NCBI RefSeq assembly: GCF_001458775.1
Contig: NZ_CZPZ01000005.1
Span: 1 to 64,000 of the forward strand
DNA from: Candidatus Nitrospira nitrificans
Lineage (GTDB): Bacteria > Nitrospirota > Nitrospiria > Nitrospirales > Nitrospiraceae
Length of the DNA stretch: 64,000 bases
Reading direction: 5' to 3'
Position numbers and translations under genes: made by a program. The notes under the pieces are model-generated. The model was not told where the DNA came from and made no database searches. It saw nothing but the letters and a program-made list of their open reading frames with translations. Of this stretch, positions 1,359-25,228 are shown piece after piece; positions within the stretch are counted from its first letter, which is position 1; every line of letters begins with the position of its first letter.

Positions 1359-1796
1359 TTACTTGCCGAGTCCGAGGGCCTTCACGGATGCGTATGCGGC
1401 TGTGCGAGCTTTGATGGCAGGATTGAGGAGCACTCCGGGATCCGCGTGGACACCGATTTCCGCGACCCGCTTACAGTGGCGGATGACGTCATTCAGGGAA
1501 GCGACACCCTCCCCTCGCCCTGGATGCGACGTGGAGAGCTGTTTAATGATCGATTCGGCATACCGCACCGTCTCAGCGCAATGGTGAATGATTGCCTTCG
1601 CATCACCCATTCCGCCATGGGCCACCATCACTTCGGCATTCGATCTCAGCCCGTCCGCCGCTTCCTTTAGGCTTTGATCCGGTTCACCGGCGAGCGCGAT
1701 CGTGTGTGCGATCAGTGAAACAAGGATGGCGACCATGAGCCCGGAGATCATCGATGCGATGCTGGAGTATCCGGTTTGCAACCGTAAAGGCGCCAT
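1359..1796 (-). CDS. SmbP-like small periplasmic metal-binding protein
   Basis: This 145-aa protein has a hydrophobic N-terminus (about residues 12-36, ending near ALAGE) that looks like a signal peptide. The rest is helical with regularly spaced His and acidic residues (MVAHGGMGDAKAIIHHC, later DVIRHCKRVAEIGVHAD). The pattern resembles SmbP, the small metal-binding protein described in Nitrosomonas europaea, but it is longer and carries two Cys. The start ATG overlaps the stop of the upstream gene by one base (TAATG), which suggests translational coupling. It ends a run of copper-related genes, consistent with metal buffering. Function is inferred from composition and context only. Confidence 0.55.
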   Translation of the reverse strand: MAPLRLQTGYSSIASMISGLMVAILVSLIAHTIALAGEPDQSLKEAADGLRSNAEVMVAHGGMGDAKAIIHHCAETVRYAESIIKQLSTSHPGRGEGVASLNDVIRHCKRVAEIGVHADPGVLLNPAIKARTAAYASVKALGLGK

Positions 1797-2302
1797 TAAT
1801 AGCGCCCCTTGGGGACGATCACGGCAGATGTCAGCTCGTGATAAAGACGATGAAATGCTTCCGTCGTCAACTCAGGGTTCTGCAACCTCGTCAAGGTTGC
1901 TTGATCAATCGGATATTCCACGGTGTCATCATAATTTGACGACGCGATCGTGATAAACCTGGGGGGAAACAATCGTTCCGGCAGTAAGATGCCGACTCCT
2001 AGGTTGTACTTCAGCGCCAATCGGATCGCTTCCCTGGCCTTATCGGCTGGGACCTCTCGCCCCAATCCGATATTCTGCGGTGGTTGTCCCATCCGAGCAA
2101 ACTGGAAATGCACGTTCAGAAATCCGGCTTGCGCGAATTCCTGTTTGAGTTCGGCTTCACGAGTTCGATACTGATTGGCAAGCACCACTTCGACACGGCT
2201 CACCGACTGCACCGCCGCAACCTCGCCGAACGCGGCCGGCGTCGTTATCTCACTCACCAGAAGGGTGAGGAGCAAACCGACCAATTGCCACCATACACGC
2301 AT
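1796..2302 (-). CDS. Secreted protein of unknown function
   Basis: The 168-aa product begins with a hydrophobic segment (residues 6-25, cleavage likely near AAFGEV) and is otherwise soluble with no cysteine. I do not recognise a family. It lies 2 bases downstream of the blue-copper-like gene ending at 2305 and overlaps the SmbP-like gene by one base, so the three genes are very likely co-transcribed. A role in the copper module is guilt by association. Confidence 0.6.
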   Translation of the reverse strand: MRVWWQLVGLLLTLLVSEITTPAAFGEVAAVQSVSRVEVVLANQYRTREAELKQEFAQAGFLNVHFQFARMGQPPQNIGLGREVPADKAREAIRLALKYNLGVGILLPERLFPPRFITIASSNYDDTVEYPIDQATLTRLQNPELTTEAFHRLYHELTSAVIVPKGRY

Positions 2303-2304
2303 TG

Positions 2305-3093
2305 CTATTTCGCCTTAAACGTAAATTCCACCGAACTGCTTTCTCCGGCCGCCACGGTGAATTCCCGGTCCTGTTCCCCGAGAGTCGGATGCCAGGCTTT
2401 GATCCGGTAGGTGCCGGCCGGGAGGTCTCTGATGTCAAACATCCCCTCGCTCCCCGTCACGGCATAGTACGGATTATCGACAGCGAGACCATGTCCCTGC
2501 ATATAGGGATGCATCCCGCATTGCATGATAACACCTCGCCGATCCCCGGTAAAACGAACAAAATCCTGGGTTCCCCCTTTGGTCAGCGCGGGACGGTGAA
2601 ACATAATAAAGATATGTTCCCAATCCCGTTCATACACTTGAAGATCGTGCGCGACGGAATCCAGATTTTTCACGCTCAGAGGATGCTCGTTGCGCATGAC
2701 CGAAACATAGGGCACGAACTGACAGATATTCGCTTCCAACGTGGTTTCTTCCAATTCGAACGGTTTACCGATTGTCACGCTCTCGATCGTGACAATCACG
2801 TCTTTGAGTCCGCCTTGTGGCCCCACCAAGACTTCGCGAAGCAGACGATAGCCGGATCCATCCGAAAGGGCACCGCAATAGCCCTGATCCGGATAGCGAT
2901 GGAGTTTGAAGACAGCCGGGTCAGGCAAATCGCCGGTGAAGTGCACCATCCCCTTGACCGCGCCTCCGTTCACGACCGTCACTGACTCATAGGCCGATGC
3001 GAGTTCCATCGCTCCCGGACTCATCGTGAGTATCGTGAAAGTCAAGCCGATGAAACCAAGAACAAGAGCACGGGTGAAGCGTCTCATCATCAC
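2305..3093 (-). CDS. Blue-copper-like protein with C-terminal carboxypeptidase-regulatory-like domain (copy 1)
   Basis: This 262-aa exported protein has a signal segment at residues 10-34. A cupredoxin-like core carries a plausible type 1 copper site: H149 (in SVAHDLQVY), then C192, H195 and M198 in QCGMHPYM. The C-x2-H-x2-M spacing is that of amicyanin. A carboxypeptidase-regulatory-like beta domain follows (about 205-262, motif LPAGTYRIKAWHP). A close paralogue lies at 8505-9278 with all four ligands conserved. It sits downstream of the first giant multicopper oxidase, separated by an intrinsic terminator at 3103-3133. I infer a soluble electron carrier for that oxidase. Copper binding is predicted, not shown. 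Confidence 0.7.
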   Translation of the reverse strand: MMMRRFTRALVLGFIGLTFTILTMSPGAMELASAYESVTVVNGGAVKGMVHFTGDLPDPAVFKLHRYPDQGYCGALSDGSGYRLLREVLVGPQGGLKDVIVTIESVTIGKPFELEETTLEANICQFVPYVSVMRNEHPLSVKNLDSVAHDLQVYERDWEHIFIMFHRPALTKGGTQDFVRFTGDRRGVIMQCGMHPYMQGHGLAVDNPYYAVTGSEGMFDIRDLPAGTYRIKAWHPTLGEQDREFTVAAGESSSVEFTFKAK

Positions 3094-3102
3094 GCCCCTG
3101 TC

Positions 3103-3133
3103 AAAAAAACACTGGGGAGCCGTGGCTCCCCAG
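3103..3133 (-). terminator. Intrinsic terminator between oxidase 1 and blue-copper gene 1
   Basis: On the minus strand the stem CTGGGGAGC / GCTCCCCAG with a four-base loop is followed by TG and seven T. It stands between the end of the 1581-aa oxidase gene and the next gene start at 3093. It could reduce read-through or set the ratio of oxidase to carrier. Confidence 0.75.
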
Positions 3134-3163
3134 CAGTATCCAATCAGATGGATTCGGTAGGAT

Positions 3164-3199
3164 GGCGGCGTTACCCGCTTTAATGCGGGTAACGCCGCC
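3164..3199 (-). other. Perfect 15-bp hairpin just downstream of oxidase 1
   Basis: GGCGGCGTTACCCGC pairs exactly with GCGGGTAACGCCGCC around a 6-base loop. It begins 12 bases past the oxidase stop codon. There is no T tract, so it is more likely a 3'-end stabiliser or pause element than a stand-alone terminator. The intrinsic terminator follows about 30 bases later. Confidence 0.7.
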
Positions 3200-3210
3200 G
3201 ATGTCCCTGC

Positions 3211-6200
3211 TTACTTCTTGCCTTTCAGCGAGGTCGGTGAGGCTTTGGCCTTACCGGACGGCTGCTCCGCAGTCCTTGTCGGTGGAACCTGCGGCATCAA
3301 CGGCTTGATCCGTTGATCATCGACCGGAAGGACCTTGAACAGGCCCCACTGTCCGGCGTTGACAAAGGCCGGCCGTTGGTTCTTCCAGAGGTAGTCGCCC
3401 ACGATCTTGTTCGGACCGCCGGCGCCTCCGGTGAGATAGGCATTGATGATTTCCGATCCACCGAACTCCATGGTGCTGACTTGGTCGGCGCCCTGCATAT
3501 AGGGTTCATGCGGCCATTCATGCCCATCAATCGTGAACAGTTGCACCTGCTCACTGAACGCGCCCAACACGTGAACGGCCACGGGATCTCCAACGTGAGC
3601 CTGGAGCAACGGGGTCGAAGGCGTATCCCCGGCTTTCACGCAGCTGAAAATCTCGGACATGTCACAGCCCTTTTCCATTCGCCACGCCGTCGGCTCCGTG
3701 CGGTAGTTGACCGCCGTGATGCCGGCTACTTGTTGAATGTAGGGCATGAAGCTCACGCCCACGATATTGTCCTCGTCCTGGAACATCAACGAGAAGTCGC
3801 GATAGTTCTTCCGGCTTTCATTTCCCGGAAGCGTCCGGTCCACAAGGACATCGGCACGCCAGCTGCTCTTCATCGTAATATCGTCACCCGAGACTGGATC
3901 ACGATACCGCGATCCCTTCGGACCAACGATGATAGAACCGAACAGGCCGTTTCGCGGATTTTCCACGACGTTCCCCCAATCCTGAATCAAGGCAGCAAGC
4001 TCCCCATATTCAGGATGGGCATAGTAGGTGTAGGTCTTGCTCTCGCCGGGACCGACCGTTTGATCACCGGGATTGTTGCCCACATTGGCGCCGAACGAAT
4101 CCTTCGGGTTAAACGCCATCATGTCGACGTGGAACCCGGCTCGCTCCTTGGCCATCTCGTTTTTCAGATTGATTTTCACGCAATCACCGACGTTGACGTG
4201 CAGAGTCAACGGGCTCGGCCTGAGTTCTCCGGCCTTGACCCGTCCTCGATCTCCGTCGAGCACATACATCTTGCCCTGTTCATTGCCGAAGACCATCTTC
4301 CGCTCAAGATCGACTTCCATCACACCCGGCGCACCCTCGTGATACCGGATCTGTTGATCGATCGCCGAGACGTTGAACGACTTCACCGGCGCATCAGCCG
4401 GACACACCGACGGAGCGGACTTTTGAATCTGCTCACGTCCAGGCAACGGCTTCAGATCGCTTTGCATTTCATCAAACACGCGGAACAAGCCCCAACTGCC
4501 TTCCGCGAAATGCGACGCGCGGCCGCTATAGTAGAGATAGTCGCCCGCTTGTTTTTGCGGACCACCAGCCGCTGGAATAGCCGGATCATACCGCTCACCG
4601 ATCACTAAATGGACCGTACTGCGCGGCATGGCATCCTTCCCGTACCGTTCCATCGGGAACCAATGCCCCGTGACGTGCCAGGTATGCACTTCATTGGCCG
4701 ACCCAACGAGCGCCCGCACGAGAATGGGGTCGCCGAGGTACGCCCGCAACAACGGAGTGCCTGGATCACCATGGATACCGGAGACAAACAATTTGGACGG
4801 ATCGGGGTTGTTCGCAAGCCGAACGCTCAACGGCTCCACACGCATGCTGTAGCCGCTACCCGTGGTGGCTTCGCCTCCGTTCAGGAACCACATCGCAGAC
4901 TTGTTGATACGTTCAGGGAACTGATGCGACGGCGGCCCATCCACCGTCACCGCATTCATCTTCGCCTGAGGATTGTCCGTCGTGATCAGCTCCGCAGATC
5001 TGGCGTTGCTGTCCATGATATGCATCATGACTTCACGGAAACTGCCTCGGATGTGGGCCGAAACCGGCTCCAAGGTATGGATGTCCGCGATGGGACCGCT
5101 CCGGATTTCTTTGCCGGTTACCGGATCATGATAGGTCGACCGTGGTGGCTCCGTGATAAACGCTGAGAAGAGGCCATGCCCCCACGTGTCCGTACCGAAC
5201 ACGTGATCATGCCAGTACACCGTGCCGAGGTCCACGTCCACATACCAGCGCTCTCGGATGAATTCCACGCTGGCAATATCGTTCTTCTTGTGTCCGTACT
5301 TCAACGGAGCATCGAACGTGACGGTCTTGCCGTTAATAGACTTGATCCGCGCGACTTCGAAGAACTTCGGATCATCCATGCCCACGCCGAGTTCCGTATT
5401 CACATGGAACTTGGACGTGTCCGCCAGCGTGATACTCCTGGCGCCGGCTTTCGAATCCGCCGTCAACAGCGTATTGGCCGGTAACGGCATGCCCTTCGTC
5501 GGCTCGGGATCCTTCAACATCGTGAAGGCGCGCAACGACATATCATAAGAGAACCCGATCGTCGGACCATCCGACGCACTGGTGTCGAACTGGAAGAAAT
5601 GCGGATGGAGGTTGATCTTGTTCGACCACCCGGTCCGCGCATCATCAGGAATTTCGTTCTTGAAGATGACATCCACGCAATCATACACGTTGCCGCGAAT
5701 AACGAGCGGCACCTGCTTTTTAGGATCCTTACGAACTTCCGCCTCTTCCTCGTGCAACACATAGATCATGCCGATCGGATCAACGACCGCCGCCGTCTTT
5801 TCCGTCGCCGGTTTCAGTGTGATCGGCAGAATGATGGAGTGAGTGGTAAAGAACTTTCGTGGAGCATTTTCAGGACACAGACTCCATGGGCCTTGTTCTC
5901 CAGGCCTGGGCGGCTCGGTACTCTTGGTGCCGTCCTCCCTCACATGGAACGGTTCCAACCAGGGCGCACCGCCATGATTCGGCGCGAAGGGCGGCCGCTT
6001 CCCGAGATGCGGACGCAGCCATGGGAACGCCAACTTGCCCGTCTGAGGATCGAACGTGATGGGGAGACGTTTCAGTGGAGCAGGCGACACATAGTCGGCC
6101 CACTTGTGCGGGGTTTCCGGCTCATTGAGTGCCAATGCCCCTTCCCATTTCCAATTCACCACGGTTGCGTCATTTGCCTTGGCTTGCTGGACTTGATCCT

Positions 6201-7956
6201 CTGTTTTACCAGGCAATCCTTGCGGAGGCAGCATGTACTCCACCCAATCCTTGATGGAGACCTTCACCGGGTTGGCTTTCCAATCGGTCTTATCCTTCGT
6301 AATTTCATACTTCTTCCCGCCATACCAATCAACCGTGGTACCGACCAGCTTGTCGGAACTGATGGCGGCTTTGATCTTGCCTGCCCGATCCGGCAACTCC
6401 ACAAGCGGCTTCATGACGTCGGTTTGGAAGCCCGGTTGCTGCAGTGTGTTGTAGACCCGCCAGAATCCCCACATGCCTGTGACATAGTGCTGCGGAATGT
6501 GGCAGTGAAAGACAAATTCTCCGGCCAACGCTTGCAACCCGCCTGATCCGCCCTCGATCACTTCATCATAAATCTCGGACGGTCCGATCGACTGCACATC
6601 CAACCGGTCAGAGGTATCATTGATCATCGGAAACTTGACCGGACCGTTCTTAGACAGAGTCGGATCCAGCTTGCTGGTCCCCGGCTGTCTCGCCCAACGG
6701 ATCGATCCACCATGGAGGTGGTGAGAATGGACGATCTCTGATCCGCCGACCATCCGGAACTTCGCCGGGTCGCCCAGATAGGAACGTGGGATCGTCGTGG
6801 CAGGGTCACCGAATGTATAGGAGCCATAGCCCTGTGATTCATCGGCAAACCCAACCAGGTGCTCTTGCATCTCCAAACGCGTGCCATGCGGCTCGCTCCG
6901 GTAGTTGAGCAACCGGGCTGCCGGACGATAGGTGTCCGTATGGGCGTCGCGTTGAGGCAACATGTCACCCTTGCGGTTGAGCAGGCGGAATGTTTCATCG
7001 CCGGCCTCGTGATAGAAAATCACGAACTCACGGAAGTCAGATCCTTTGTCAAGATCGATCATAGCTTCCCAGCCGCTCTTCATCTCCTCGCCGGTAAACG
7101 GGCTGAGATACCGAGATCCGCGTGGCTCAACCACGAGCGACCCCAACAGACCCAGCGAGTACTGCTCTCTGGATGCGTGACTATGAAATGCATGTCCGCC
7201 TTCTTGTGTATCCGGCTGGATGTACCATTCGAACTCACCGGTCTTTCCTGACGCCACCAAGGCCTCAGGGTTATTGGCCGTCGCCGGCTTTCCGCTGTTG
7301 GCGACCAACATTTGCGAGCCATTGATGATCATGTTCGTGGGCTCGCCTTCGATCTGATTGCGCAGCGTGATCCTGAGACAATCACCCTGGTTGGCCCGAA
7401 TGACCAGCGGCTGGATCAGATCCCCTTGCAACCCATTAGAGATAGCGCCCTCGGCGAAGGTCGGATCTTCACTCTCCCGCGCGGTCCTATTTTTTGTCTC
7501 TTCTTCCCGTACTCCGGCGACATTCTCCGTGAGGGCATACATGAAGCCCGGATAGAAGTCCCCGAACCGATTGACCGTAATCTCAATGTTCATCGCGGTC
7601 ACGTCATAGGCACGCACCGGCGCACTTGCCGGGCATCGTCCGCCCTGCGTGACCTTCACCTTGTCCATATCATCCGCAACGAGCAGAACACCCTGCTGCA
7701 TCGCGTGGGCACTCGCGCCCTGGAACGGTCCTTTTGAGTGGACCTGTCGCTCCACCTGCTCGACGGCTTTCGACATCTTGTCCATCAGCGCCGGACCTGC
7801 TTGTGCGTGGACTGGCTTCGCCAGATCCTGCGTCGCACCCTGCGCAACATGCCCATCGTGCGACATAATCGCACCAGCCGGCAGCGCCCCAGCCAATACC
7901 AGGCTGGCTGCGAACCCCCAAATTCCCGGCCCCATCCATTTCGTTAAATCACTCAT
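3211..7956 (-). CDS. Giant secreted multicopper oxidase, multiple cupredoxin domains (copy 1)
   Basis: This 1581-aa exported protein is made of several repeated cupredoxin-type domains. Copper ligand motifs, numbered from this start, are: GHAFHSHAS (about 254-262), HSHHLHGG (about 410-417), FHCHIPQHYVTGM (about 483-495), HPHFFQ (about 784) and WHDHVFGTDTWGHG (about 914-928). FHCHIPQHYVTGM has the HCH-x3-H-x4-M layout joining a type 1 site to a trinuclear cluster. The last third (about 1180-1550) keeps the fold signature but lacks clear HxH pairs. The length far exceeds laccases and recalls MnxG or ceruloplasmin architectures. The start at 7956 is chosen because GGAGGAGGG lies 7 bases upstream and a signal peptide (GFAASLVLAGALPAGA) follows. 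The substrate (Mn, Fe, Cu or other) cannot be read from sequence. Confidence 0.88.
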   Translation of the reverse strand: MSDLTKWMGPGIWGFAASLVLAGALPAGAIMSHDGHVAQGATQDLAKPVHAQAGPALMDKMSKAVEQVERQVHSKGPFQGASAHAMQQGVLLVADDMDKVKVTQGGRCPASAPVRAYDVTAMNIEITVNRFGDFYPGFMYALTENVAGVREEETKNRTARESEDPTFAEGAISNGLQGDLIQPLVIRANQGDCLRITLRNQIEGEPTNMIINGSQMLVANSGKPATANNPEALVASGKTGEFEWYIQPDTQEGGHAFHSHASREQYSLGLLGSLVVEPRGSRYLSPFTGEEMKSGWEAMIDLDKGSDFREFVIFYHEAGDETFRLLNRKGDMLPQRDAHTDTYRPAARLLNYRSEPHGTRLEMQEHLVGFADESQGYGSYTFGDPATTIPRSYLGDPAKFRMVGGSEIVHSHHLHGGSIRWARQPGTSKLDPTLSKNGPVKFPMINDTSDRLDVQSIGPSEIYDEVIEGGSGGLQALAGEFVFHCHIPQHYVTGMWGFWRVYNTLQQPGFQTDVMKPLVELPDRAGKIKAAISSDKLVGTTVDWYGGKKYEITKDKTDWKANPVKVSIKDWVEYMLPPQGLPGKTEDQVQQAKANDATVVNWKWEGALALNEPETPHKWADYVSPAPLKRLPITFDPQTGKLAFPWLRPHLGKRPPFAPNHGGAPWLEPFHVREDGTKSTEPPRPGEQGPWSLCPENAPRKFFTTHSIILPITLKPATEKTAAVVDPIGMIYVLHEEEAEVRKDPKKQVPLVIRGNVYDCVDVIFKNEIPDDARTGWSNKINLHPHFFQFDTSASDGPTIGFSYDMSLRAFTMLKDPEPTKGMPLPANTLLTADSKAGARSITLADTSKFHVNTELGVGMDDPKFFEVARIKSINGKTVTFDAPLKYGHKKNDIASVEFIRERWYVDVDLGTVYWHDHVFGTDTWGHGLFSAFITEPPRSTYHDPVTGKEIRSGPIADIHTLEPVSAHIRGSFREVMMHIMDSNARSAELITTDNPQAKMNAVTVDGPPSHQFPERINKSAMWFLNGGEATTGSGYSMRVEPLSVRLANNPDPSKLFVSGIHGDPGTPLLRAYLGDPILVRALVGSANEVHTWHVTGHWFPMERYGKDAMPRSTVHLVIGERYDPAIPAAGGPQKQAGDYLYYSGRASHFAEGSWGLFRVFDEMQSDLKPLPGREQIQKSAPSVCPADAPVKSFNVSAIDQQIRYHEGAPGVMEVDLERKMVFGNEQGKMYVLDGDRGRVKAGELRPSPLTLHVNVGDCVKINLKNEMAKERAGFHVDMMAFNPKDSFGANVGNNPGDQTVGPGESKTYTYYAHPEYGELAALIQDWGNVVENPRNGLFGSIIVGPKGSRYRDPVSGDDITMKSSWRADVLVDRTLPGNESRKNYRDFSLMFQDEDNIVGVSFMPYIQQVAGITAVNYRTEPTAWRMEKGCDMSEIFSCVKAGDTPSTPLLQAHVGDPVAVHVLGAFSEQVQLFTIDGHEWPHEPYMQGADQVSTMEFGGSEIINAYLTGGAGGPNKIVGDYLWKNQRPAFVNAGQWGLFKVLPVDDQRIKPLMPQVPPTRTAEQPSGKAKASPTSLKGKK

Positions 7957-8504
7957 ACGTTCACCCTCCTCCAGAAAAATATTTCTCCGCACTAGCTGTG
8001 AACAGCGTCAGACAGATTTTCGTTCAAAAGAATACTCTCGTAGAGGTCACACTGAGTCGGAAGGATTGTTGCCACTGAATCACAACGCACACACAGCTAT
8101 ATAGCAGACAAACTTCGTACCATGATGACATATATATAGATTCCAAAGACCTTTTGCAACAGGCGCAACAGGGAATTTTAATCTCGCCGCCTCAACAGAT
8201 GATATGAATGTTGTCGGTGGGACCAGCCGAGACGCTCGACGAATTTCGATAGCCCGTCGCACATATCACGGAACGCTACAGGAAGATCGAGTACCACGTC
8301 ATGTCCCACGGTCGGAACGAAGGATGAGGGATCAGGATCAAAGTCTCGATTTGCGGGAGAGAACCAACTCATGCCAATGATTGAACAGATACTCGCGACC
8401 TACCAACCTGGACGAGATCAGAAGGCGGTCAGCCCGCTCGTACCGAACCTAAGCTACCAGTTGCGCTGCGATGAATATCAGGTAACGCCTCCCACCCTGT
8501 CCCA
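7957..8504. other. Intergenic region upstream of oxidase 1
   Basis: This roughly 550-base gap separates the two copper modules and should hold the promoter of the first oxidase. It contains a strong Shine-Dalgarno sequence (7963-7971) and an A+T-rich patch near 8128-8140. I could not find a convincing sigma-70 pair. A 64-codon open frame (8178-8372, minus) has no recognisable features and I do not call it a gene. Confidence 0.5.
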
Positions 8505-9278
8505 TCATTTGGCTTCAAACGACAGATCGAATGACACCGTCTCATTGGGTTTTACGGTAAGGTCCCGCTCTTGGCTGCCGAGGATCGGATGCCAGGCCTT
8601 GATGTGATAGGTCCCGGCCGGGAGATCACCGATCGTAAACGAGCCGTTGAGATCGGTCACGGCATAATAGGGATTGTCGATCGCATAGCCCCAGTTCTGC
8701 ATGTAAGGGTGCATGCCGCACTGCATGGTAAACACTTTCCGCCCTTTGACCAGCTGTACGACATCGGTGGTCCCGCTCACGTGCAGCGCGGGCCGATGGA
8801 GGACGATATCGACGCCGGCTTGGTCATATGCATAGCCTTGAATGTCGTGCGACACCGGATCCCGATTAAACACCGTGACGCGGCGCTTGTCGCTGACCAC
8901 CGTGACGAAGGGTAGGAACTGGCAGAGACTCGCTTCCACTTCGGCATCGGTGAACGTGAACGGCTTGCCTTTCTGGATGCCTTCCACCACCACGACCACA
9001 TCCTTGAGTCCCCCCTCAGGCCCGAGATTGACTTCCTTCAGGAGCCGATGCCCTTTGCCGTCCGATACCGTGCCGCAATACTCACGGTCATAATAGCGAC
9101 GCAGCTCGAATTCTTTGGGTTCCGGAACAGTTCCGGTAAACGTGACTTTCCCCCGCACCGTCCCTCCGTCCACCACCGGTGCCGACTCATAGGCCCCGGC
9201 ATCGGTTCGCAGCCCCGTTGTCAGGAAGACCGATACACAGCCCGCCGCCCATAATGCGCCCAATATCGCCGTTCTCAT
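8505..9278 (-). CDS. Blue-copper-like protein with C-terminal carboxypeptidase-regulatory-like domain (copy 2)
   Basis: This is the paralogue of the product at 2305-3093, 257 aa from the ATG at 9278, which has GGAGG four bases upstream. A signal segment covers about residues 4-23. The predicted type 1 copper ligands are conserved: His in PVSHDIQGY (about residue 144), then Cys, His and Met in QCGMHPYM (about 187-193). The C-terminal domain has LPAGTYHIKAWHP. It follows the LolA-like gene after 19 bases and is the last gene of the second copper module. It is probably an electron carrier or copper donor for the second giant oxidase (inference). Confidence 0.7.
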   Translation of the reverse strand: MRTAILGALWAAGCVSVFLTTGLRTDAGAYESAPVVDGGTVRGKVTFTGTVPEPKEFELRRYYDREYCGTVSDGKGHRLLKEVNLGPEGGLKDVVVVVEGIQKGKPFTFTDAEVEASLCQFLPFVTVVSDKRRVTVFNRDPVSHDIQGYAYDQAGVDIVLHRPALHVSGTTDVVQLVKGRKVFTMQCGMHPYMQNWGYAIDNPYYAVTDLNGSFTIGDLPAGTYHIKAWHPILGSQERDLTVKPNETVSFDLSFEAK

Positions 9279-9297
9279 GTTTCCTCCGGTCATGCGA

Positions 9298-9894
9298 CTA
9301 CTGTTGCGTATCGGCGGATGGATTCGCGTTATCCAGCCGTCGTGGAAGCTCGAAGAGGAACGGAGATTGCTCCGTGAAGATCACCCGACGAAACTCCTCC
9401 GACCACTTCCCCTGCTTGCTCACCGTCTTCAGTGGAAACCGCTCGGCCTTGGTCACCCACCGATAATATTGACGCGTTTCACCCCGTTCGGCAACCGTCA
9501 CTTCAAACAGTTCCGTGGGGTGACCATTCAGCGTCTCGTCGCCCACCAACTCGCGCGAGACCTCTCCGTCCATATTCTCGGCCACCGTCAATGCATGGTC
9601 GGCCGCGATCGGAACCTCGAGATACTGCCGCCGTTTCGAAAGGATGAGCCACGAATGCTGCTTATCCTTCCGAACGATCATGATATTGGCCCCTCGCTGG
9701 GGGTACGTGTATTCGAACCGCCAGCGATCGCCCTTGGCGTTGACATGGGCTGTGACGATCGACTCTCCGTTTTTTACGATCCGCTCAGCCGAAAAATCAA
9801 GTGCTGTAGCCGGCGCTGAGACACTCCCGGTGACCGCCGACACGAGCCCGATCAAGAGCAAACGAATCGAGAGAGGAAGATCTTGCGGTTCCAT
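9298..9894 (-). CDS. Secreted LolA/LolB-like outer-membrane-lipoprotein-sorting fold protein
   Basis: The 198-aa product has a signal segment (about residues 8-31, ending SAPATA). The body reads like the half-barrel of LolA-type proteins: FSAERIVKNGESIVTAHV, then KGDRWRFEYTYP, then RYLEVPIAAD, then PTELFEVTV. Such proteins bind lipid or hydrophobic ligands in the periplasm. It lies between oxidase 2 and blue-copper gene 2. Only this module has it; module 1 carries an unrelated 168-aa secreted protein instead. The family call is moderate and the cargo is unknown. Confidence 0.5.
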   Translation of the reverse strand: MEPQDLPLSIRLLLIGLVSAVTGSVSAPATALDFSAERIVKNGESIVTAHVNAKGDRWRFEYTYPQRGANIMIVRKDKQHSWLILSKRRQYLEVPIAADHALTVAENMDGEVSRELVGDETLNGHPTELFEVTVAERGETRQYYRWVTKAERFPLKTVSKQGKWSEEFRRVIFTEQSPFLFELPRRLDNANPSADTQQ

Positions 9895-9942
9895 CAGTCT
9901 TTGTACCGTATGTTTGAGTTGGGTTCAAGACATCGTTCACCG

Positions 9943-9991
9943 TTCAAAAACAAACGGGGGAACCCGGCTCTCACATCGCCGGATTCCCCCG
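9943..9991 (-). terminator. Intrinsic terminator downstream of oxidase 2
   Basis: On the minus strand CGGGGGAATCCGGC pairs with GCCGGGTTCCCCCG with a single G-U-type mismatch around a 9-base loop, followed by TTTGTTTTTG. It separates oxidase 2 from the LolA-like gene, the same relative place as the terminator after oxidase 1, so both modules uncouple the oxidase from the small carrier genes. Confidence 0.7.
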
Positions 9992-10012
9992 TCGGTTCGG
10001 TCTCCCGTGGGT

Positions 10013-13000
10013 CTACTTAGCCTTCGCCTTCGTCGACACCGGGAGAGATTTTGCCGGCGATGAACCCCCGGCCTGTTGTGTGGCCGGAGCTTTGCCGCTC
10101 AGCGGAAGGATCGCACGGTTGTCGCGATCCAAGACCTTCAGCATCCCCCAGTGCCCGGCATCGAGATAGCCCGGACGCTGATTGAGCCAGAGATAGTCAC
10201 CAGGAATCCCGTTCGGTCCGCCGGCTCCGCCGTGCAACCAGGCATTGATGACTTCGGACCCACCGAATTCCATGGTGCTCACGAGGTCGGCCCCGCTCAT
10301 GTACGGTTCGTGCTTCCATTCATGGCCCGACACGCTGAAGAGCTGCACCTGTTCGCTGAACGCCCCGAGAACGTGGATGACGACCAAATCGCCGACGTGC
10401 GCGGCGATGGTCGGCGTCACGGGGGTCTCACCCGCCTTCACGCAGGCGAACACTTCGCTGTAGGCGCAGCCTTTCTCCGTGCGGTAATCGGTCGGCTCCG
10501 ACCGATAGTTCACCGCCGTCACGCCGGCCACCTTTTGGATGTACGGCATGAAGCTGGTTCCGATTTGGTTGTCTTCGTCCTGGAACAGAAGCGTGAACGA
10601 GCGGTAGTTCTGCCGTTTTTCGTTTCCTGATACGGTCTGATCGACAATCACATCCGCCCTCCACGAGCTCTTCTGGCCCAAGTCCTCGCCGGTCACCGGA
10701 TCGCGATACTGCGATCCCTTCGGACCGATGATGACGGCACCAAAGAGTCCGTTCCGTGGATTCTCGATCACGTTCCCCCAGTCCTGAATGAGAGCCGAGT
10801 TCTCTCCGAACTCCGGATGGGCGTAGAACGTATAGGTCTTACTCTGGCCCGGCGCGATCGTCTGATCGCCGGGATTGTTGCCGGCGTTGATACCCATGGA
10901 CTCTTTTGGATCATACGCCAGGTTGTCCACGTGGAACCCGGCTCGGTCCTTGGCCATCTCGTTCTTCAGATTGACCTTGATGCAGTCACCGACATTGACG
11001 TGCAACGTCAACGGGCTCGGCTCAAGGTTGCCCGACGCGACTTTGGTCTTCTCGCCTTCGAGCACATATATCTTACCCGTCTCATTGCCCAGCACCATTT
11101 TGCGCTCCAGGTCGACCTCCATCGTCCCAGGCGTCCCCTTGTTGTAGCGAATCGCCTTGTCGATGGCCGAGACGTTGAAGCTCTTCAGCGGCGCGCCGGC
11201 CGGACACACCGACTTGGCCGACTGTGGAATCTCGCTGCGCCCAGGGAGCGGCTTCAGCGTGGTCTCCGGTTTGTCAAGGACTCGGAAAATTCCCCAGCTG
11301 CCTTCGACGAAGTGCGACGCCCGACCACTATAGTACAGGTAGTCGCCGGCCATTTGCTGCGGTCCGCCGGCGGCCGGAATAGCCGCATCGTACCGTTCCC
11401 CGATCACCACGTGCAGCGAGCTCCGTGGAATGGAGTTCTTGCTGTAGCGCTCCATCGGGAACCAGTGCCCACTGATGTGCCAGGAATGCACTTCGTTTGC
11501 CGACGTTTCAAGCAGCCTGACCACCACCGGATCGCCCAGGTAGGCCCGCAACATCAGCGTGTCCGGATCTCCATGAACCCGGCTGCTGAACAACTGCGAC
11601 GGATCGGGGTTGTTGGCTAAGCGGACAGACAAAGGCTCTATCCGCATGTTGTACCCGCCGCCGGTCGTGGCCTCGCCGCCGTTTAAGAACTTCATCGGCG
11701 AGAGGTTCAATCTGGCCGGATAGACCGCCGAAGGCGTCCCATCCACAGATATGGCATTGACCCTCGCCTGCGGATTGTCGGCCGTAATCAATTCCGCCGC
11801 CCGAGGGTTGGAATCCATGACATGTGTCACGATCTCACGGAAAGATCCCTTGATATGGGCGGACACCGGTTCGGTCGTGTGAATGTCTGCGACGGGGCCG
11901 CTCCTGATTTCCTTACCCGTGACCGGATCATGATAGGTCGATCGCGGCGGCTCCGTGATGAATGAGGCATATTGCCCGTGTCCCCACGAGTCGAGTCCAT
12001 ACACATGGTCATGCCAGAACGTGGTGCCGAAATCGGCGTCCACATACCAGCGCTCGCGGATCCACTCGACCGAGGCAATCTCACCCTTCTTATGGGCGTG
12101 CTGCAACGGCCGCTCAAAGGTGATCGTATTGCCGTCGATCTTGCTGATACGGGCTGACTCGAATCCATTCACTTCATCCATCCCCACGCCCAGCTCTGTC
12201 TTGACGTGGAACTTCGACGCATCCTTGACCTTGATGCTGGTCGCCCCCTTGGCGGCATCCGCCTCGATCGTGGTGTTCATCGGGACCGGCATGCCCTTGC
12301 CGGGATGCTCGTCTTTCAGAATCGTGAACGGCCGGAGCGACATCTCATACGAGAAGCCGATGATCGGACCGTCGGAGGCTTGCGTGTCGAACTGGAACAT
12401 GTGCGGATGCAGGTTCGTCTTGCTGGAGAACCCTTGCCGTGCATCATCCTTCAGCTCGCTCTTATAGACCACGTCAACGCAGTCCTGCACGTTTCCGCGA
12501 ATGACCAGCGGAAACTGCTTCGCTCGATTCTTTCGAACCTCAGCTTCCTCTTCATGCAACACATAGAGCAAGCCGTCCGGATCGACGATCGCCGGCGTCT
12601 TGGCCGTCGCCCCCTTCAAGGTAATCGGCAAGGTGATCGCATGGATATTGAATTTCTTGAGCGGCGCGCCTTCCGGACAGAGACTCCAGGGTCCGTTCTC
12701 GCCCGGCTTGGCAGGCTCGGTTGAATTGCTGCCGTCGTCACGCCGATGGATCGGCTCCAACCACGGCGCCCCGCTATGGCTCGGAGAGAAGGGCACCCGC
12801 CGCCCCAAATGCGGCCGTAACCACGGCCACGACAGTTTTCCGCTGCGAGGGTCGAAGAGAATCTCCTGCCGCTTGCCAGGAGTCGCCGACTTGTAGTTCA
12901 CCCATTCGTACGAGGTTTCCGGCTCGGTCAGCGCCTTCGCCCCGTCCCACGCCCAATCATTGACCGTCGAGTCATAGGCCAGGGTCTGTTCCTTTTCCGT

Positions 13001-14785
13001 GTTCTTGTGCCCTGGCTTGCCCTGCGGCGGCACCTGCATCTCGACCCAATCCTTGATGGAGACCTTGGCCGGATTGGCTTTCCAATCCGTCTTGTCCTTG
13101 GTGATCTCGAATTTTTTGCCGCCGTACCAATCGACCATCGTGCCCACGAGCTTATCGCTTGCGACACCGGTCCTCATGCGGCCGGCGCGATCCGGCAACT
13201 CAACCAGGGGTTTCATCACATCGGTCTGGAACCCTGGCGCTTGCAGGGTGTTGTACACCCGCCAGAATCCCCACATGCCCGTCACATAGTGCTGCGGGAT
13301 GTGGCAGTGGAACACGAACTCGCCGGCCAATGCCTGCAATCCTCCTGAACCGCCCTCGATCACTTGATCGTAGATCTCTGTCGGCCCAATGGACTGCACA
13401 TCGAGACGATCTGAAGTATCGCTGATGAGCGGAAACTTCACCGGTCCATTGCTGGAAGCCGCGAAGTCCAGGTTGCTGATCCCCGGCTGGCGTGCCCAGC
13501 GAATGGACCCCCCATGGAGGTGATGCGAATGCACGATCTCCGATCCACCTGCCATCCGGAACTTGGCCGGATCGCCGAGATACGAGCGGGGGATGGTCGT
13601 GGCCGGATCGCCGAACGTATAGGACCCATAGGCCATGGACTCATCACCGTAGAACCCCATGTGTGCTTGAAGTTCGATGCGGGTACCGTGCGGCTCGCTG
13701 CGATAGTTCAGCAACCGTGCCCCAGGGCGATAGGAATCGGTATGCGGGTCGCGCTGCGGCAGCATCTCACCCTTCTTGTTCAAAATCCGGAAGGCCTCAT
13801 CTCCTGCCTCATGATAAAAGATCGCGAATTCGCGGAAATCCGCCCCCTTCGGATCTTCAATCATGGCTTCCCAGCCGCTCGCCATCGGCTTGCCGTCGAA
13901 GGGGCTCAGATAGCGCGAGCCGCTCGGCTCCACCACGAGCATGCCGATCAGGCCCTGATTGAATTGCTCGCGCGAGGCGTGTGAGCGGAAAAACCGCGCG
14001 CCTTCCTGCGTGTCGGGTTTGATGTACCATTCAAAGTTTTGCTGCTTGCCCATCGCCACGGTCGTATCCGGATTCGACGGGGTTGCCGGCTTCCCGGTCG
14101 ATGAGACCACCATCGACGACCCATTGATGACGAGGTTGGTCGGCTCATCGGTGATCTGGTTATGGAGTGTCATCTTGAGGCAGTCACCCTGATTCGCCCG
14201 GATGACGAGCGGTTGGATCACATCACCCTGCAGACCGTTCGACAGGGCACCGGGATCGTTTTCTTTTTCCCGCGCGTCCTTGTTCGCGGTCTCCTCGGCT
14301 CGTGCTTTATCCAGATTTTCGTTCAGGACGTACATATACCCGGGGAAGTAATCGAGAAAACGGCTCAGGGTAATTTCAATGTTGATCGCGGTGACATGAT
14401 ATTCCTTGACGGGTGCATTCGCCGGACACCGCTGCCCGCCGGTGACCGAGACTTTGTCCGAATCCTCCGCCACCAGCAACACGCCCTGTTGCATCATGTG
14501 GCTGTCGGCGCCCGTGCTGTACCCTCCCTTCTTCCCGATGAATTCCTGCTGCCGCTTGATCTCTTCCATCATGCGGTCGTGAAGGACTGACCCGCCTTCA
14601 CGATAAATCACCTTTTTGGCGGACGCCGGCTCCACGCTACCGTGGTGACCATGTTGCTCCGCGGCCCACGCCATCGGCGTCACGGCGAGCCCGCTCGCCA
14701 TGACCAGGCTCAGGAATCGCCGCATGATGCCGCCTCTCCTCGGCCTCCGGTGCTGTTTGGAAATGTTAACCTGCGTAGATCTCAT
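10013..14785 (-). CDS. Giant secreted multicopper oxidase, multiple cupredoxin domains (copy 2)
   Basis: A full-length paralogue of the 3211-7956 product, 1590 aa from ATG 14785. It keeps the same ligand motifs in order: HSHHLHGG, FHCHIPQHYVTGM, HPHMFQ and WHDHVYGLDSWGHG. The first motif differs: copy 1 reads GGHAFHSHAS, copy 2 reads GARFFRSHAS, so one His pair is reduced to a single His. Two starts compete. ATG 14785 has GGGGAGG 7 bases upstream but gives a 20-residue basic extension. ATG 14725 starts directly at the signal peptide MRRFLSLVMASGLAV. The secretion signal is present either way. The preprotein also has a His-rich EQHGHHG stretch after the likely cleavage site. The changed ligand site may mean a different metal centre or substrate. 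Confidence 0.88.
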   Translation of the reverse strand: MRSTQVNISKQHRRPRRGGIMRRFLSLVMASGLAVTPMAWAAEQHGHHGSVEPASAKKVIYREGGSVLHDRMMEEIKRQQEFIGKKGGYSTGADSHMMQQGVLLVAEDSDKVSVTGGQRCPANAPVKEYHVTAINIEITLSRFLDYFPGYMYVLNENLDKARAEETANKDAREKENDPGALSNGLQGDVIQPLVIRANQGDCLKMTLHNQITDEPTNLVINGSSMVVSSTGKPATPSNPDTTVAMGKQQNFEWYIKPDTQEGARFFRSHASREQFNQGLIGMLVVEPSGSRYLSPFDGKPMASGWEAMIEDPKGADFREFAIFYHEAGDEAFRILNKKGEMLPQRDPHTDSYRPGARLLNYRSEPHGTRIELQAHMGFYGDESMAYGSYTFGDPATTIPRSYLGDPAKFRMAGGSEIVHSHHLHGGSIRWARQPGISNLDFAASSNGPVKFPLISDTSDRLDVQSIGPTEIYDQVIEGGSGGLQALAGEFVFHCHIPQHYVTGMWGFWRVYNTLQAPGFQTDVMKPLVELPDRAGRMRTGVASDKLVGTMVDWYGGKKFEITKDKTDWKANPAKVSIKDWVEMQVPPQGKPGHKNTEKEQTLAYDSTVNDWAWDGAKALTEPETSYEWVNYKSATPGKRQEILFDPRSGKLSWPWLRPHLGRRVPFSPSHSGAPWLEPIHRRDDGSNSTEPAKPGENGPWSLCPEGAPLKKFNIHAITLPITLKGATAKTPAIVDPDGLLYVLHEEEAEVRKNRAKQFPLVIRGNVQDCVDVVYKSELKDDARQGFSSKTNLHPHMFQFDTQASDGPIIGFSYEMSLRPFTILKDEHPGKGMPVPMNTTIEADAAKGATSIKVKDASKFHVKTELGVGMDEVNGFESARISKIDGNTITFERPLQHAHKKGEIASVEWIRERWYVDADFGTTFWHDHVYGLDSWGHGQYASFITEPPRSTYHDPVTGKEIRSGPVADIHTTEPVSAHIKGSFREIVTHVMDSNPRAAELITADNPQARVNAISVDGTPSAVYPARLNLSPMKFLNGGEATTGGGYNMRIEPLSVRLANNPDPSQLFSSRVHGDPDTLMLRAYLGDPVVVRLLETSANEVHSWHISGHWFPMERYSKNSIPRSSLHVVIGERYDAAIPAAGGPQQMAGDYLYYSGRASHFVEGSWGIFRVLDKPETTLKPLPGRSEIPQSAKSVCPAGAPLKSFNVSAIDKAIRYNKGTPGTMEVDLERKMVLGNETGKIYVLEGEKTKVASGNLEPSPLTLHVNVGDCIKVNLKNEMAKDRAGFHVDNLAYDPKESMGINAGNNPGDQTIAPGQSKTYTFYAHPEFGENSALIQDWGNVIENPRNGLFGAVIIGPKGSQYRDPVTGEDLGQKSSWRADVIVDQTVSGNEKRQNYRSFTLLFQDEDNQIGTSFMPYIQKVAGVTAVNYRSEPTDYRTEKGCAYSEVFACVKAGETPVTPTIAAHVGDLVVIHVLGAFSEQVQLFSVSGHEWKHEPYMSGADLVSTMEFGGSEVINAWLHGGAGGPNGIPGDYLWLNQRPGYLDAGHWGMLKVLDRDNRAILPLSGKAPATQQAGGSSPAKSLPVSTKAKAK

Positions 14786-16804: not shown

Positions 16805-17566
16805 TTACTGTGTAGTCGGGGGATGTTCCTTGCCTCGCCACGCAAGCACAACCAACGCTCCGATGATGACAATGACCAACCAGATGGTAGGCCGACCGTA
16901 CGAGGCATCGGAGAATTCGATCAAGTCCGTCAAGCGTCCGATCAACAGCGACATGCGCGCCATGACCGTGTAGCCGAACCCGGCGCCGAACGAAATCATC
17001 AGGAAGAGAATGCCGGTTCGCGCCACCGCCTTCCCCTCTCCGCTATGCTCGATCGAGAAAAAGAAGTAGAACAGCACCGAGCTCACCCCGATCAAGATGA
17101 TGATCGCGTTGAGGTGGCTGGCTGGATTGAGCAGATTCATCGAGAACGTGAGGCCGTCCGGTCCGGTCACCGACAACAACGGTCGAATGGTATCCTCGAC
17201 CTGTTTGAGGATGAAGGATGACACCGTTCTCGGAATCGCCAAGCCGGCGCCCATGCCGACAATGAAGGCGAACGCATACCGAGACATCCAAGCCGCCTTC
17301 GGCACATACCGAGCCAGCATCATCATCCCGATGGCGACGGGAATCAGCAGGGAGATTTCACCGTTCTCAACGATCGGCTTGACGACCAAATGCACGATGA
17401 CCGTGTCGTAGGTCTTCACGATCACGTAGCCGACCGACACGCCGACATAGAGATGCTCCGCGAGTTTGAACAGCGGGTTGTCTTTGTAGAGAAAAGAAAA
17501 GATGAGCAGCGTCAACCCTGTCGCGACCCACGCGCCTACGATCATGTCAAACGGCATCGTCGTCAC
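16805..17566 (-). CDS. Polytopic inner-membrane protein of unknown function
   Basis: A 253-aa hydrophobic protein with about seven or eight predicted membrane spans (for example residues 7-25, 39-55, 73-86, 98-113, 150-171, 184-205 and 228-245). A short non-membrane loop (about 114-145) contains VEDTIRPLLSVTGPDG. No catalytic motif is visible and I do not recognise a family. It lies 7 bases after the 274-aa gene, within the MutL cluster. With its two membrane neighbours it probably forms the membrane part of one complex (inference). Confidence 0.6.
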   Translation of the reverse strand: MTTMPFDMIVGAWVATGLTLLIFSFLYKDNPLFKLAEHLYVGVSVGYVIVKTYDTVIVHLVVKPIVENGEISLLIPVAIGMMMLARYVPKAAWMSRYAFAFIVGMGAGLAIPRTVSSFILKQVEDTIRPLLSVTGPDGLTFSMNLLNPASHLNAIIILIGVSSVLFYFFFSIEHSGEGKAVARTGILFLMISFGAGFGYTVMARMSLLIGRLTDLIEFSDASYGRPTIWLVIVIIGALVVLAWRGKEHPPTTQ

Positions 17567-17573
17567 TCATGCC

Positions 17574-18398
17574 TTACCCTCGTTGTCGACGTAGTGAAAA
17601 ATAGAACAAGTTGCACATGATCACCAGCACGATGATGGCAAGATGCGTGGCCGACTGGGCGTCCATCCCGGCCACGGCCTTGCCTTTCTGGCCGATCAAG
17701 CTTTCGTATTCCGCCGCGCCACGGAGACCCCCGATGAGGCCATTGATCTGCCCGCTTCGTAGCAACGGATATAAGCCGGGAGCCATGACTCCGGTACAAC
17801 CGCCACCGAGCTCGAACTTATATTTATCCTTTCCAAAGACATACCACTCTTCCACCCCCGGCCGCCCGGCGCCCAAACTGACCATATATCCGACATCCTT
17901 CAAGCTCCGCACACCGTCCAACACCGGCAAGTCTTTCGTGGCCTTTCCACCATAATCGCTGGGAAAGGCTGAATAGAGATCCTGGCCCATATTGATGATC
18001 ACAGCTTGCCCGCCCGGACTCCAACCGAGAAAGGCGTAGTCCGTGCCGTATTCCTTCCCCATCTCCTTGGCGACTTGTGTGACCAATTGGTCCGCCATGC
18101 CGGTGCCCGACACCCAGAGAGTCATCGTGACGACACGAAGGTGTTTCCGGAAGGCATGGCGCAACAGAGCGATCGCTTGCGGATAGAGCTCCGGTTTGGA
18201 CGCCGGATCGAAATCGATCGAGAGAAGGAACACCGACCGTTCCGGCAACGATTCAATATGGTCATACACACCACGCACTTCCGATGAAATCTTGATCGGC
18301 AAGCCGACCGGATAGAGCAACGGCAAAAGTGTGCAGAGACCGATCACCAGGAAGATGATCCGCCGATCGATCTTGAGCATGCGCTCCGAGAGACTCAT
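17574..18398 (-). CDS. Bitopic membrane protein with large extracytoplasmic domain, unknown function
   Basis: A 274-aa protein with one N-terminal span (about residues 13-31) and one C-terminal span (about 249-267). They bracket a roughly 215-residue soluble domain with alpha/beta character (SVFLLSIDFDPASKPELYPQ, VVTMTLWVSGTGMADQLV, YAFLGWSPGGQAVIINMG). The small-residue-rich loop EYGTDYAFLGWSPGG could be a ligand loop, but I do not recognise the family. It is spaced 7 bases from the next gene. A 137-base gap with short GTGAAACG-type repeats lies upstream. Confidence 0.6.
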   Translation of the reverse strand: MSLSERMLKIDRRIIFLVIGLCTLLPLLYPVGLPIKISSEVRGVYDHIESLPERSVFLLSIDFDPASKPELYPQAIALLRHAFRKHLRVVTMTLWVSGTGMADQLVTQVAKEMGKEYGTDYAFLGWSPGGQAVIINMGQDLYSAFPSDYGGKATKDLPVLDGVRSLKDVGYMVSLGAGRPGVEEWYVFGKDKYKFELGGGCTGVMAPGLYPLLRSGQINGLIGGLRGAAEYESLIGQKGKAVAGMDAQSATHLAIIVLVIMCNLFYFSLRRQRG

Positions 18399-18535
18399 AG
18401 CCCGTTCCTCGTGAAGCGTGAAACGTATCGGCCGACGGTTTCAAGTTTCATATTTCAGGTTTGAGGTTTTGGCACAACGTGACACTGGGAACGTGAAACT
18501 TGGACTCATGAGCGAGATACGAGCGACGCTTCACG
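18399..18535. repeat. Short GTGAA-type intergenic repeats
   Basis: Several variants of tcgtgaagcgtgaaacg, tttcaagtttcatatttcag, gaacgtgaaact and cgcttcacgtt recur in both orientations within this gap. The same words reappear at 23520-23585 between two other genes of this cluster and at 21618-21628. They can fold into imperfect hairpins and look like a dispersed species-specific intergenic repeat. Confidence 0.5.
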
Positions 18536-19186
18536 TTATTCCTTCCCGCCGCCGAGATACGACCGTTCCACACCGAAAATGATCTTGAACGACAACGCCA
18601 CGGCCCCGAGACTCACCCCGATCAGAATGGCCCGGCGCACGGATGAATTCAGTACGTTCAAAATCCATGACGACACATCACCGCTGACGGGAATCAAATA
18701 TTCACCCAGCGGCACACGCCCCATCATGACGATGACGGCCGCCACCAAGAGCACCGCCGCTTCACGACTCTTGGCCCTGAACGAGCGATAGGCCGCGGAG
18801 GCGATGAAGAAGGCCAGGATGGCAAACATCGTCCCTTGCAGCGGCACCATCATGTAGTTGTAGACCCAGCCGAATGCCGTCATGGCTCCTTCGACACTTT
18901 CCTTGCCGTTGGCCCAGAGCCCCACCGCGATGGTGCCGAGCATCCCGACGTACAGCACGAGACTATAACCCCAGCCCGCTTCTTGGCGTCTGATCTTCAC
19001 CGCATGTTGATGGAACAGGCTGGTCACTCCCAGGATCAACGCGAACCCACCGATGATCTGCAGCCATTTCGTCGCGGAGGTGAGCATCTGTTCCGAAGCA
19101 GGATGCGGGACATAATACTGGCCGGCAAAGAGGAGACCGGTGACCAGGGTGATCAAGAGGGGCAGCTGTCGGCGGAGAAAGATCAT
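18536..19186 (-). CDS. Polytopic membrane protein of unknown function
   Basis: A 216-aa protein with about six membrane spans and a short C-terminal tail (VERSYLGGGKE). The start at 19186 is chosen because its ATG overlaps the stop of the upstream DUF6754-like gene as ATGA, the usual coupling arrangement; a longer frame to 19225 would intrude further into that gene. No motif is recognised. Co-translation with the DUF6754-like protein suggests a physical partner. Confidence 0.65.
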   Translation of the reverse strand: MIFLRRQLPLLITLVTGLLFAGQYYVPHPASEQMLTSATKWLQIIGGFALILGVTSLFHQHAVKIRRQEAGWGYSLVLYVGMLGTIAVGLWANGKESVEGAMTAFGWVYNYMMVPLQGTMFAILAFFIASAAYRSFRAKSREAAVLLVAAVIVMMGRVPLGEYLIPVSGDVSSWILNVLNSSVRRAILIGVSLGAVALSFKIIFGVERSYLGGGKE

Positions 19187-20454
19187 TTTAAATCCCTCAA
19201 GAGATCGAGAAAGAGCTGGGGCCATTGCGCGCCGGTGACGGCTCCCAGCGTCGCCAACAGGATGCCGATACCGATGGCGCTCAAGACGACCGCCTTCCCG
19301 ATATCCTGACCGCGCAGCGTCCCGATCTGCACCGGTTCTTTGGAGAGGTAGGCGCTGGCGGCATAGAGCTCCTCGCCGATCAGGGTATAGTCGCAGGTCG
19401 TCACAAAGAACGGAAGTTGGTGGTCCGAGTCGGTACCGGCGATCTGAATGGCTCCGGTACTCGCACCGGTCTCCGTCAACAGCAATGATTCGGCGAAGTA
19501 CGCGCCCATGAAGAAGTTCGCGGCCGGCTTCTTCCGCAACATGATGCCGTCCACCGCCGCCGTGTAGCTGAACTGATCGGCCGTGATAAAAAAGTTGGCG
19601 TCTTCTTTGAAAAGATCCGGCTTGCCCGCTTCCAAATAGGCCTGCTTGGTAATTTCCTGGCAGACCGCCATCGTGATCGGCTCGCGATGCGGCACCAGCA
19701 GTTCCGTTTCGTAGAGCGCGGCCCGTTTGGCAACTTTCCCTAAAATGACTGCGGCGGCGATCGTCGAGGGATCATGCAGATCATGCGCGCCGGTCAGATA
19801 GAGGATCGGCTTGCCCAGCTCCGTCGCACGTCCGATCGCTTCATCAACCGCATCAAGACCTGGAATCCGCCGTAGGAAGATCTCGTGTTGCTTCGCGTAA
19901 CCGATCGTATAGAAGACCAGTCCCCCGAACGACAACGCGATGATGAGATTATTGAGTTGATTCCAATTAAACCAGTCCGGTGAAGGACTGGCCACTAGGA
20001 CTGGGCTGAAGACCCGCTGATCGCTTTGAACGGCTGCCACAACAACGGCATAGGATGTCCCATCCTTGACCTCGAATCCCTTCGCGCTTCTGATGAGGAC
20101 GTGGTGCCACGTCTTGTCTACCTTCCTGGTCCACCAGGCTGTTTTTGCGTCTTTGACGTATTTCGTGTTCGCTGGGATTTCCGCGATAATCGTCAGTGCT
20201 GCCGGGTCAGTCACAGCCGCATCACCGGCCAAGACTTGATACCGTGCATCAGGACCATCCCATGACGAAGGAGCCCACTGCACCGTGAGGCTGCCTCCAC
20301 CATCACTCGGCGTATCAAAGACCCGAACGTCTTGCGGTGCGCTGATCGATGTCTGTGCCAGCGTATCCAGTGGCACGAGGTTTGAGGCACACACGATCAA
20401 CTGCAAGAAGAACCAGCCGAAACCGATGTAGAATCGTCTCAACCTGCTCCTCAC
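19183..20454 (-). CDS. FN3-containing membrane protein, DUF6754-like
   Basis: A 423-aa protein with, in order: an N-terminal signal or anchor (about residues 9-33), a fibronectin-type-III-like domain (about 39-155, with SAPQDVRVFDTPSDGGGSL and TSYAVVVAAV), a membrane span (about 170-187), a conserved soluble domain (about 195-385) and a final span (about 390-412). The soluble domain contains GKPILYLTGAHDLHDPSTIA, KRAALYETELLVPHREP and NFFMGAYFAESLLLTETGA. I believe this matches the family of unknown function DUF6754, but cannot run a search. It lies 19 bases after the barrel-sandwich gene. It is probably a scaffold of the MutL-associated complex (inference). Confidence 0.6.
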   Translation of the reverse strand: MRSRLRRFYIGFGWFFLQLIVCASNLVPLDTLAQTSISAPQDVRVFDTPSDGGGSLTVQWAPSSWDGPDARYQVLAGDAAVTDPAALTIIAEIPANTKYVKDAKTAWWTRKVDKTWHHVLIRSAKGFEVKDGTSYAVVVAAVQSDQRVFSPVLVASPSPDWFNWNQLNNLIIALSFGGLVFYTIGYAKQHEIFLRRIPGLDAVDEAIGRATELGKPILYLTGAHDLHDPSTIAAAVILGKVAKRAALYETELLVPHREPITMAVCQEITKQAYLEAGKPDLFKEDANFFITADQFSYTAAVDGIMLRKKPAANFFMGAYFAESLLLTETGASTGAIQIAGTDSDHQLPFFVTTCDYTLIGEELYAASAYLSKEPVQIGTLRGQDIGKAVVLSAIGIGILLATLGAVTGAQWPQLFLDLLRDLK

Positions 20455-20473
20455 ACCTTCCCCCTTACGCCAC

Positions 20474-21598: not shown

Positions 21599-21653
21599 AG
21601 ATCAGTTTTGAGTTGTACGTTTCACGTGACTGCCACCCACAACAAATCCACCG

Positions 21654-23483: not shown

Positions 23484-23589
23484 TAGCAACCACTCCGACT
23501 AAGAGTGAGTCGCTCGTCATACGTGAAGTGTGAAGCGCTAGAAATCTGAAACGTGACACGCTTCACGAGAGACGTTTCACGAGGATAGG

Positions 23590-24028: not shown

Positions 24029-24056
24029 TTCAATGAGGCTATTGGAGGCTCTGGCA

Positions 24057-25206: not shown

Positions 25207-25228
25207 GGAACAACGAGAAACAGGTTTT

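Follow-up and report, generated by a model that had tools for sequence, protein, structure and literature searches.

Giant multicopper oxidases of the MnxG superfamily and an associated cupredoxin in comammox Nitrospira and across class Nitrospiria

Two oxidase modules at the locus

The window, as we call the whole 64 kb stretch of DNA that was analysed, is part of the genome of a comammox Nitrospira (4.1 Mb, 99.8% complete, with one copy of the ammonia monooxygenase A gene). Near its beginning lie two gene modules, here A and B, each built around a multicopper oxidase of unusual size and each containing a small copper protein that we call the carrier (Table 1). An earlier note, made from the letters alone, had read them as paralogous modules, and this reading holds: both oxidase frames are present on the minus strand, with 1593 and 1590 codons for amino acids, their products are 69% identical over nearly the full length, and the A and B types each form a well-supported clade. 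No other copy of the family is found in this genome.

The finer layout departs from the earlier description in two respects. The small copper protein, said to follow each oxidase, does so directly in module A, while in module B the 198-aa gene P0005 intervenes; and the single extra secreted gene ascribed to each module holds in module B only, since module A has two, of 168 and 145 aa. The former, P0006, has no family match in Pfam or NCBIfam. The latter, P0007, matches the small metal-binding protein family SMBP (PF16785) at E 2.2e-5 and 25 bits, which is under the Pfam gathering cut-off of 29, and is therefore called SMBP-like only. The terminators proposed downstream of the oxidases were recovered in both modules as a terminator-like hairpin with a run of T.

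Table 1. Features of modules A and B, in window coordinates
Feature	Position	Strand	Description
Oxidase B (P0002)	10013..14785	-	1590 aa; signal-like segment at the N-terminus; by homology a multicopper oxidase of the MnxG superfamily, type-1 and trinuclear ligand motifs complete
Terminator-like hairpin and T-run	9950..9995 (about)	-	downstream of oxidase B, ahead of P0005; 13-bp-plus stem
P0005	9298..9894	-	198 aa, secreted; DUF4412 match weak, below cut-off; between oxidase B and carrier B
Carrier B (P0004)	8505..9293	-	262-aa cupredoxin by predicted fold; H149, C192, H195, M198; C-terminal CarboxypepD_reg domain
Degenerate remnant of convergent gene	8286..8448	+	other genomes have this gene after the carrier/SMBP portion of module B
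Oxidase A (P0001)	3211..7992	-	1593 aa; MnxG-superfamily multicopper oxidase by homology
Terminator-like hairpin and TTTTTTT	3110..3135 (about)	-	between oxidase A and carrier A; 11-bp stem
Carrier A (P0003)	2305..3093	-	262-aa cupredoxin by predicted fold; CarboxypepD_reg domain; identity to carrier B about 48-51%
P0006	1796..2302	-	168 aa, secreted; strongly conserved with module A
P0007	1359..1796	-	145 aa, SMBP-like (small metal-binding protein); invariant H60, H71, H72, C73, C108

Several neighbouring features may be recorded here. Module A ends directly next to a DDE_Tnp_1/DUF772 transposase gene (154-1110). A run of minus-strand genes at 16805-23489 includes a DUF6754 protein, a MutL-type (PF13941) protein and several uncharacterised ones, and at 24000-32000, in a possible inserted island of uncharacterised genes and an AAA ATPase, G+C dips to 0.50-0.53 against 0.57.

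Family and copper sites of the oxidase and its carrier

Homology places oxidases A and B among the multicopper oxidases of the MnxG superfamily, in line with the suggestion that proteins of this size come mainly from metal-oxidising or ceruloplasmin-like families. Pfam recognizes two multicopper oxidase domains in each, the NCBIfam MnxG model matches both (E 3.6e-41 and 1.4e-33; 140 and 115 bits), and the solved MnxG structure (PDB 9bxa) matches oxidase A at E 1e-91 and oxidase B at 7.5e-98. The four ligand motifs are present as HxH, HxH, HxxHxH and HCHxxxHxxxxM, and their order is permuted as in MnxG, with motifs C and D N-terminal to A and B: oxidase A has C (H422, H425, H427), D (H496, C497, H498, H502, M507), A (H796, H798) and B (H928, H930), the last two aligning with FHIHF and HDH of MnxG. 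Its type-1 copper would be held by H422, C497, H502 and M507, and its trinuclear cluster by H425, H427, H496, H498, H796, H798, H928 and H930. The matching copper motifs that had been noticed in the two proteins are complete: all 12 type-1 and trinuclear ligands are invariant in the 81 of 81 full-length family members, and the 12 columns are identical in an alignment with Priestia MnxG, five MnxG-type proteins (closer MnxG homologues from Nitrospirota), a Streptomyces relative and sampled family members. The trinuclear site thus appears intact in its ligand residues, a conclusion drawn from the alignment to the solved homologue. The arrangement of three repeats of two domains suggests that the cluster lies between domains 2 and 3. 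An AlphaFold model of residues 95-1215 of oxidase A with 37 homologues reached a mean pLDDT of 44 and was discarded.

The two proteins are nonetheless relatives of MnxG rather than MnxG proper, judging from their own fully supported clade (support 1.0), their identity of about 34% to Priestia MnxG and their scores of 115-140 bits against the equivalog model NF041487, far under its curated cut-off of 3100. With MnxG of Bacillus/Priestia (9bxa) and Pseudomonas (NF041487) they share homology over most of the length, the permuted order and the copper ligands. The gene neighbourhoods differ: in Priestia two small genes stand directly upstream of MnxG, whereas modules A and B have no small genes like MnxE/MnxF and carry a cupredoxin downstream instead. 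A scheme common to the SMBP-like protein and MnxE/MnxF was rejected, as the small Priestia genes, judged by eye, look different from it. The nearest full-length relative that we found outside Nitrospirota is a giant multicopper oxidase on a plasmid of Streptomyces sp. NBC_00335. It shares 39% identity across 1418 aligned positions and branches as a sister in the tree, but it has no adjoining carrier gene and is followed by copC.

The type-1 copper motif reported for the small partner proteins is present in both, as C-x2-H-x2-M in the 262-aa carriers. It forms an amicyanin-type loop (CGMHPYM) and is accompanied by a plastocyanin-like upstream His (VSHDIQ). The ligands H149, C192, H195 and M198 are kept in the main carrier group, the first His being shifted in six distant paralogues. 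The carrier model has a pLDDT of 85, and its best Foldseek matches are an archaeal cupredoxin, amicyanin and plastocyanin, with target TM up to 0.73. On its predicted fold, the carrier is a plastocyanin/amicyanin-like cupredoxin, sharing the cupredoxin fold with both proteins and the C-x2-H-x2-M loop with amicyanin. It differs from them in a C-terminal beta domain, recognized by Pfam as CarboxypepD_reg, and in an extended N-terminus that carries two invariant Cys.

Conservation and history of the module

Oxidase and carrier families occur together in 67 of the 68 genomes of class Nitrospiria and in all 57 of good quality. Nearly all of the relatives found come from Nitrospira MAGs. In Nitrospira the order is oxidase A, carrier, P0006, SMBP-like gene in module A and oxidase B, P0005, carrier, sometimes followed by an SMBP-like gene, in module B; its retention across dozens of Nitrospira genomes indicates that the arrangement is not due to chance. 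The linkage extends to a class-level set of 33 full-length paralogues, about 55% identical and fetched from across class Nitrospiria, 28 of which have a carrier no more than 400 bp downstream, in many cases as two or three tandem copies. No carrier adjoins the MnxG-type genes at any of five loci examined. The oxidase-carrier module is thus real, ancient and class-wide around an oxidase of the MnxG superfamily, and part of it had already been noticed. As a side observation, one Nitrospira genome has two genes of the formylglycine-generating enzyme family (FGE-sulfatase-like) between two oxidase-carrier modules (L180 8582-10587).

The hairpin between the oxidase and the next gene is likewise conserved. 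It is present at 22 of 27 A loci with a carrier, 11 of 15 B loci and, at class level, 24 of 28 loci; when the same sequence is shuffled by mononucleotides, the rate drops to about 1%. The MnxG-type loci lack it (0 of 5). Its persistence across loci argues that the terminator is real and old, and it may set the ratio of oxidase to carrier.

The A, B and class-level oxidases fall into separate clades with support from 0.985 to 1.0, which makes the duplication into A and B older than the sampled Nitrospira. Co-inheritance of oxidase and carrier, proposed at the outset as a check on the pairing, is borne out by the correlation of their tree distances (r 0.86; best permutation 0.21), and also within types, where r is 0.67 for A, 0.72 for B and 0.85 at class level and exceeds all permutations in each case. 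Such a correlation is, however, expected from shared vertical inheritance alone. The carrier clades are less clean than those of the oxidase, one carrier from an A locus (L036) falling in a distant carrier group.

The description of the carrier as a cognate blue-copper protein stands in part: it is a linked cupredoxin by predicted fold, but not an obligate partner. A carrier lies within 1 kb of an A/B-type oxidase at 38 of 53 loci, P0006 following the oxidase at the remaining 15, and two further carriers of this genome are encoded at a distance from any oxidase. One of these, on contig 12 (29378-31475; locus L073 7380-9476), stands in a cassette of P0005-like, carrier and SMBP-like genes that lacks an oxidase; the carrier is 80% identical to carrier B. 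The DNA of the cassette aligns to module B, including the degenerate convergent gene (8286-8448), which indicates that both go back to a single duplicated segment and have since lost different parts; in this genome module B is without its former SMBP-like gene. The cassette adjoins chlorite dismutase, Rieske and FGE-sulfatase-like genes. The other, on contig 36 at about 13283-13969 (L074), is a distant paralogue (34%) that lies among urease genes.

Proposed function and the manganese question

What could be the role of such a module? We put forward, at roughly even chances, a secreted oxidase of the MnxG superfamily that would take electrons from a metal ion, pass them to O2 with formation of water and exchange electrons with its own cupredoxin outside the cytoplasm. 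Each module would supply one six-domain multicopper oxidase and one cupredoxin for this exchange. One-electron oxidation would occur at the type-1 copper, and the electrons would move on to the trinuclear cluster, located where the second domain, with motifs C and D, meets the third, with motifs A and B; there O2 would be reduced to water. The donor would most probably be a metal ion. Kinship with MnxG favours Mn(II) by analogy, and Fe(II) or Cu(I) are the other candidates; the cupredoxin may act as an electron relay that links the oxidase to the periplasmic chain, and metal may be handled by the SMBP-like protein. The data themselves give the family, the full set of ligands and their permuted order, the motif and predicted fold of the carrier, the linkage of the genes, the age of the duplication and the conservation of the hairpin; we infer in this scheme secretion, electron transfer between oxidase and carrier and its direction, the substrate and the placing of the cluster between domains. 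To our knowledge, MnxG itself needs no such carrier, so the presence of one may point to a different job.

Against this scheme we count the class-wide spread, which includes nitrifiers not known for Mn oxidation, and the existence of some oxidases without carriers and some carriers without oxidases. The same universality, independent of a Mn lifestyle, would suit an O2 reductase whose physiological donor is the cupredoxin, itself reduced by the periplasmic respiratory chain, the enzyme scavenging O2 or disposing of electrons and so protecting the O2-sensitive reductive TCA cycle. A cupredoxin that is dedicated, linked, correlated in its tree and often present in two or three tandem copies beside the oxidase speaks for this arrangement; yet in relatives of MnxG the type-1 site acts on small substrates, and 15 A-type loci have no adjacent carrier, and we consider it rather unlikely. 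Copper homeostasis would assign the oxidase to periplasmic Cu(I) and the cupredoxin and SMBP-like proteins to binding or delivery of copper. The SMBP-like neighbour agrees with it, as do a CusF-like gene, weakly matched, in the vicinity of one module at class level and copC, which stands beside the Streptomyces relative and also a few genes upstream of Priestia MnxG. The oxidases, however, lack a CueO-type Met-rich segment, no stretch of 50 residues holding more than 5 Met, and Cu(I) oxidation does not need proteins so large and so many; we consider this role unlikely.

Lucker et al. 2013 (PMC3578206) noted a MnxG-like multicopper protein, conserved in Nitrospira, in Nitrospina gracilis and Ca. 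Nitrospira defluvii; in Nitrospina it belongs to a cluster of NXR, a bd-like oxidase and two cupredoxin-like proteins. Those proteins resemble oxidases A and B by description, while tandem A/B modules, SMBP-like genes, terminators and class-wide pairing do not figure in that account as far as its passages on the protein go. No NXR linkage of the Nitrospina type is seen in this genome, its molybdopterin enzymes lying on other contigs than both oxidases. The same authors proposed for Nitrospina and Nitrospira, partly because N. defluvii was described as having neither SOD nor catalase, that Mn(III) made by the oxidase scavenges superoxide (PMC3578206). The MnxG relationship fits this defence against reactive oxygen, but it leaves the carrier unexplained, and we regard it as very improbable. 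What was known before thus comprises the MnxG-like oxidase of Nitrospira and Nitrospina and the cupredoxins of the Nitrospina NXR cluster; of the module around the oxidase we found no description in a literature search that covered few subscription papers, and it is apparently undescribed.

Yu et al. 2022 reported two novel multicopper oxidases in every genome of Ca. Manganitrophaceae, a family of the same class Nitrospiria, and pointed out that Mn lithotrophy by such an enzyme would need a periplasmic carrier (PMC9040806). Given the class-wide presence of the family, those two enzymes are likely members of it. A more far-reaching version of the metal-oxidase proposal holds that in Nitrospiria an oxidase of the MnxG superfamily became coupled to a cupredoxin of its own; electrons drawn from Mn(II) or a different metal would then enter the periplasmic respiratory chain and not go only to O2. 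We think this quite improbable; if true, the cupredoxin would be the very carrier called for in PMC9040806. The universality of the oxidase among nitrifiers argues against inferring Mn lithotrophy from the presence of the gene.

The role of Nitrospira in Mn removal by drinking-water filters is an open question, and a 2025 study of sand filters argued for Mn oxidation by Nitrospira partly from MnxG in Nitrospira MAGs (PMC12070406). Since almost every relative in the class has a set of these oxidases, a 'MnxG-like' gene in Nitrospira is by itself no proof of Mn oxidation. The carrier-linked oxidase offers a concrete two-protein system that can be expressed and tested with Mn, Fe, Cu and the carrier. 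Annotations of MnxG may merge two things, the class-wide, carrier-linked relative and a rarer, much closer MnxG-type oxidase, which occurs in about a dozen of 198 sampled Nitrospirota genomes. Two Nitrospiraceae loci of the latter that we examined (L172 and L175) have no carrier gene beside the oxidase. The MnxG-type oxidases of some Nitrospiraceae (L172, L175, G088, G099, G110, G119, G149, G167) range from 1500 to 2400 aa.
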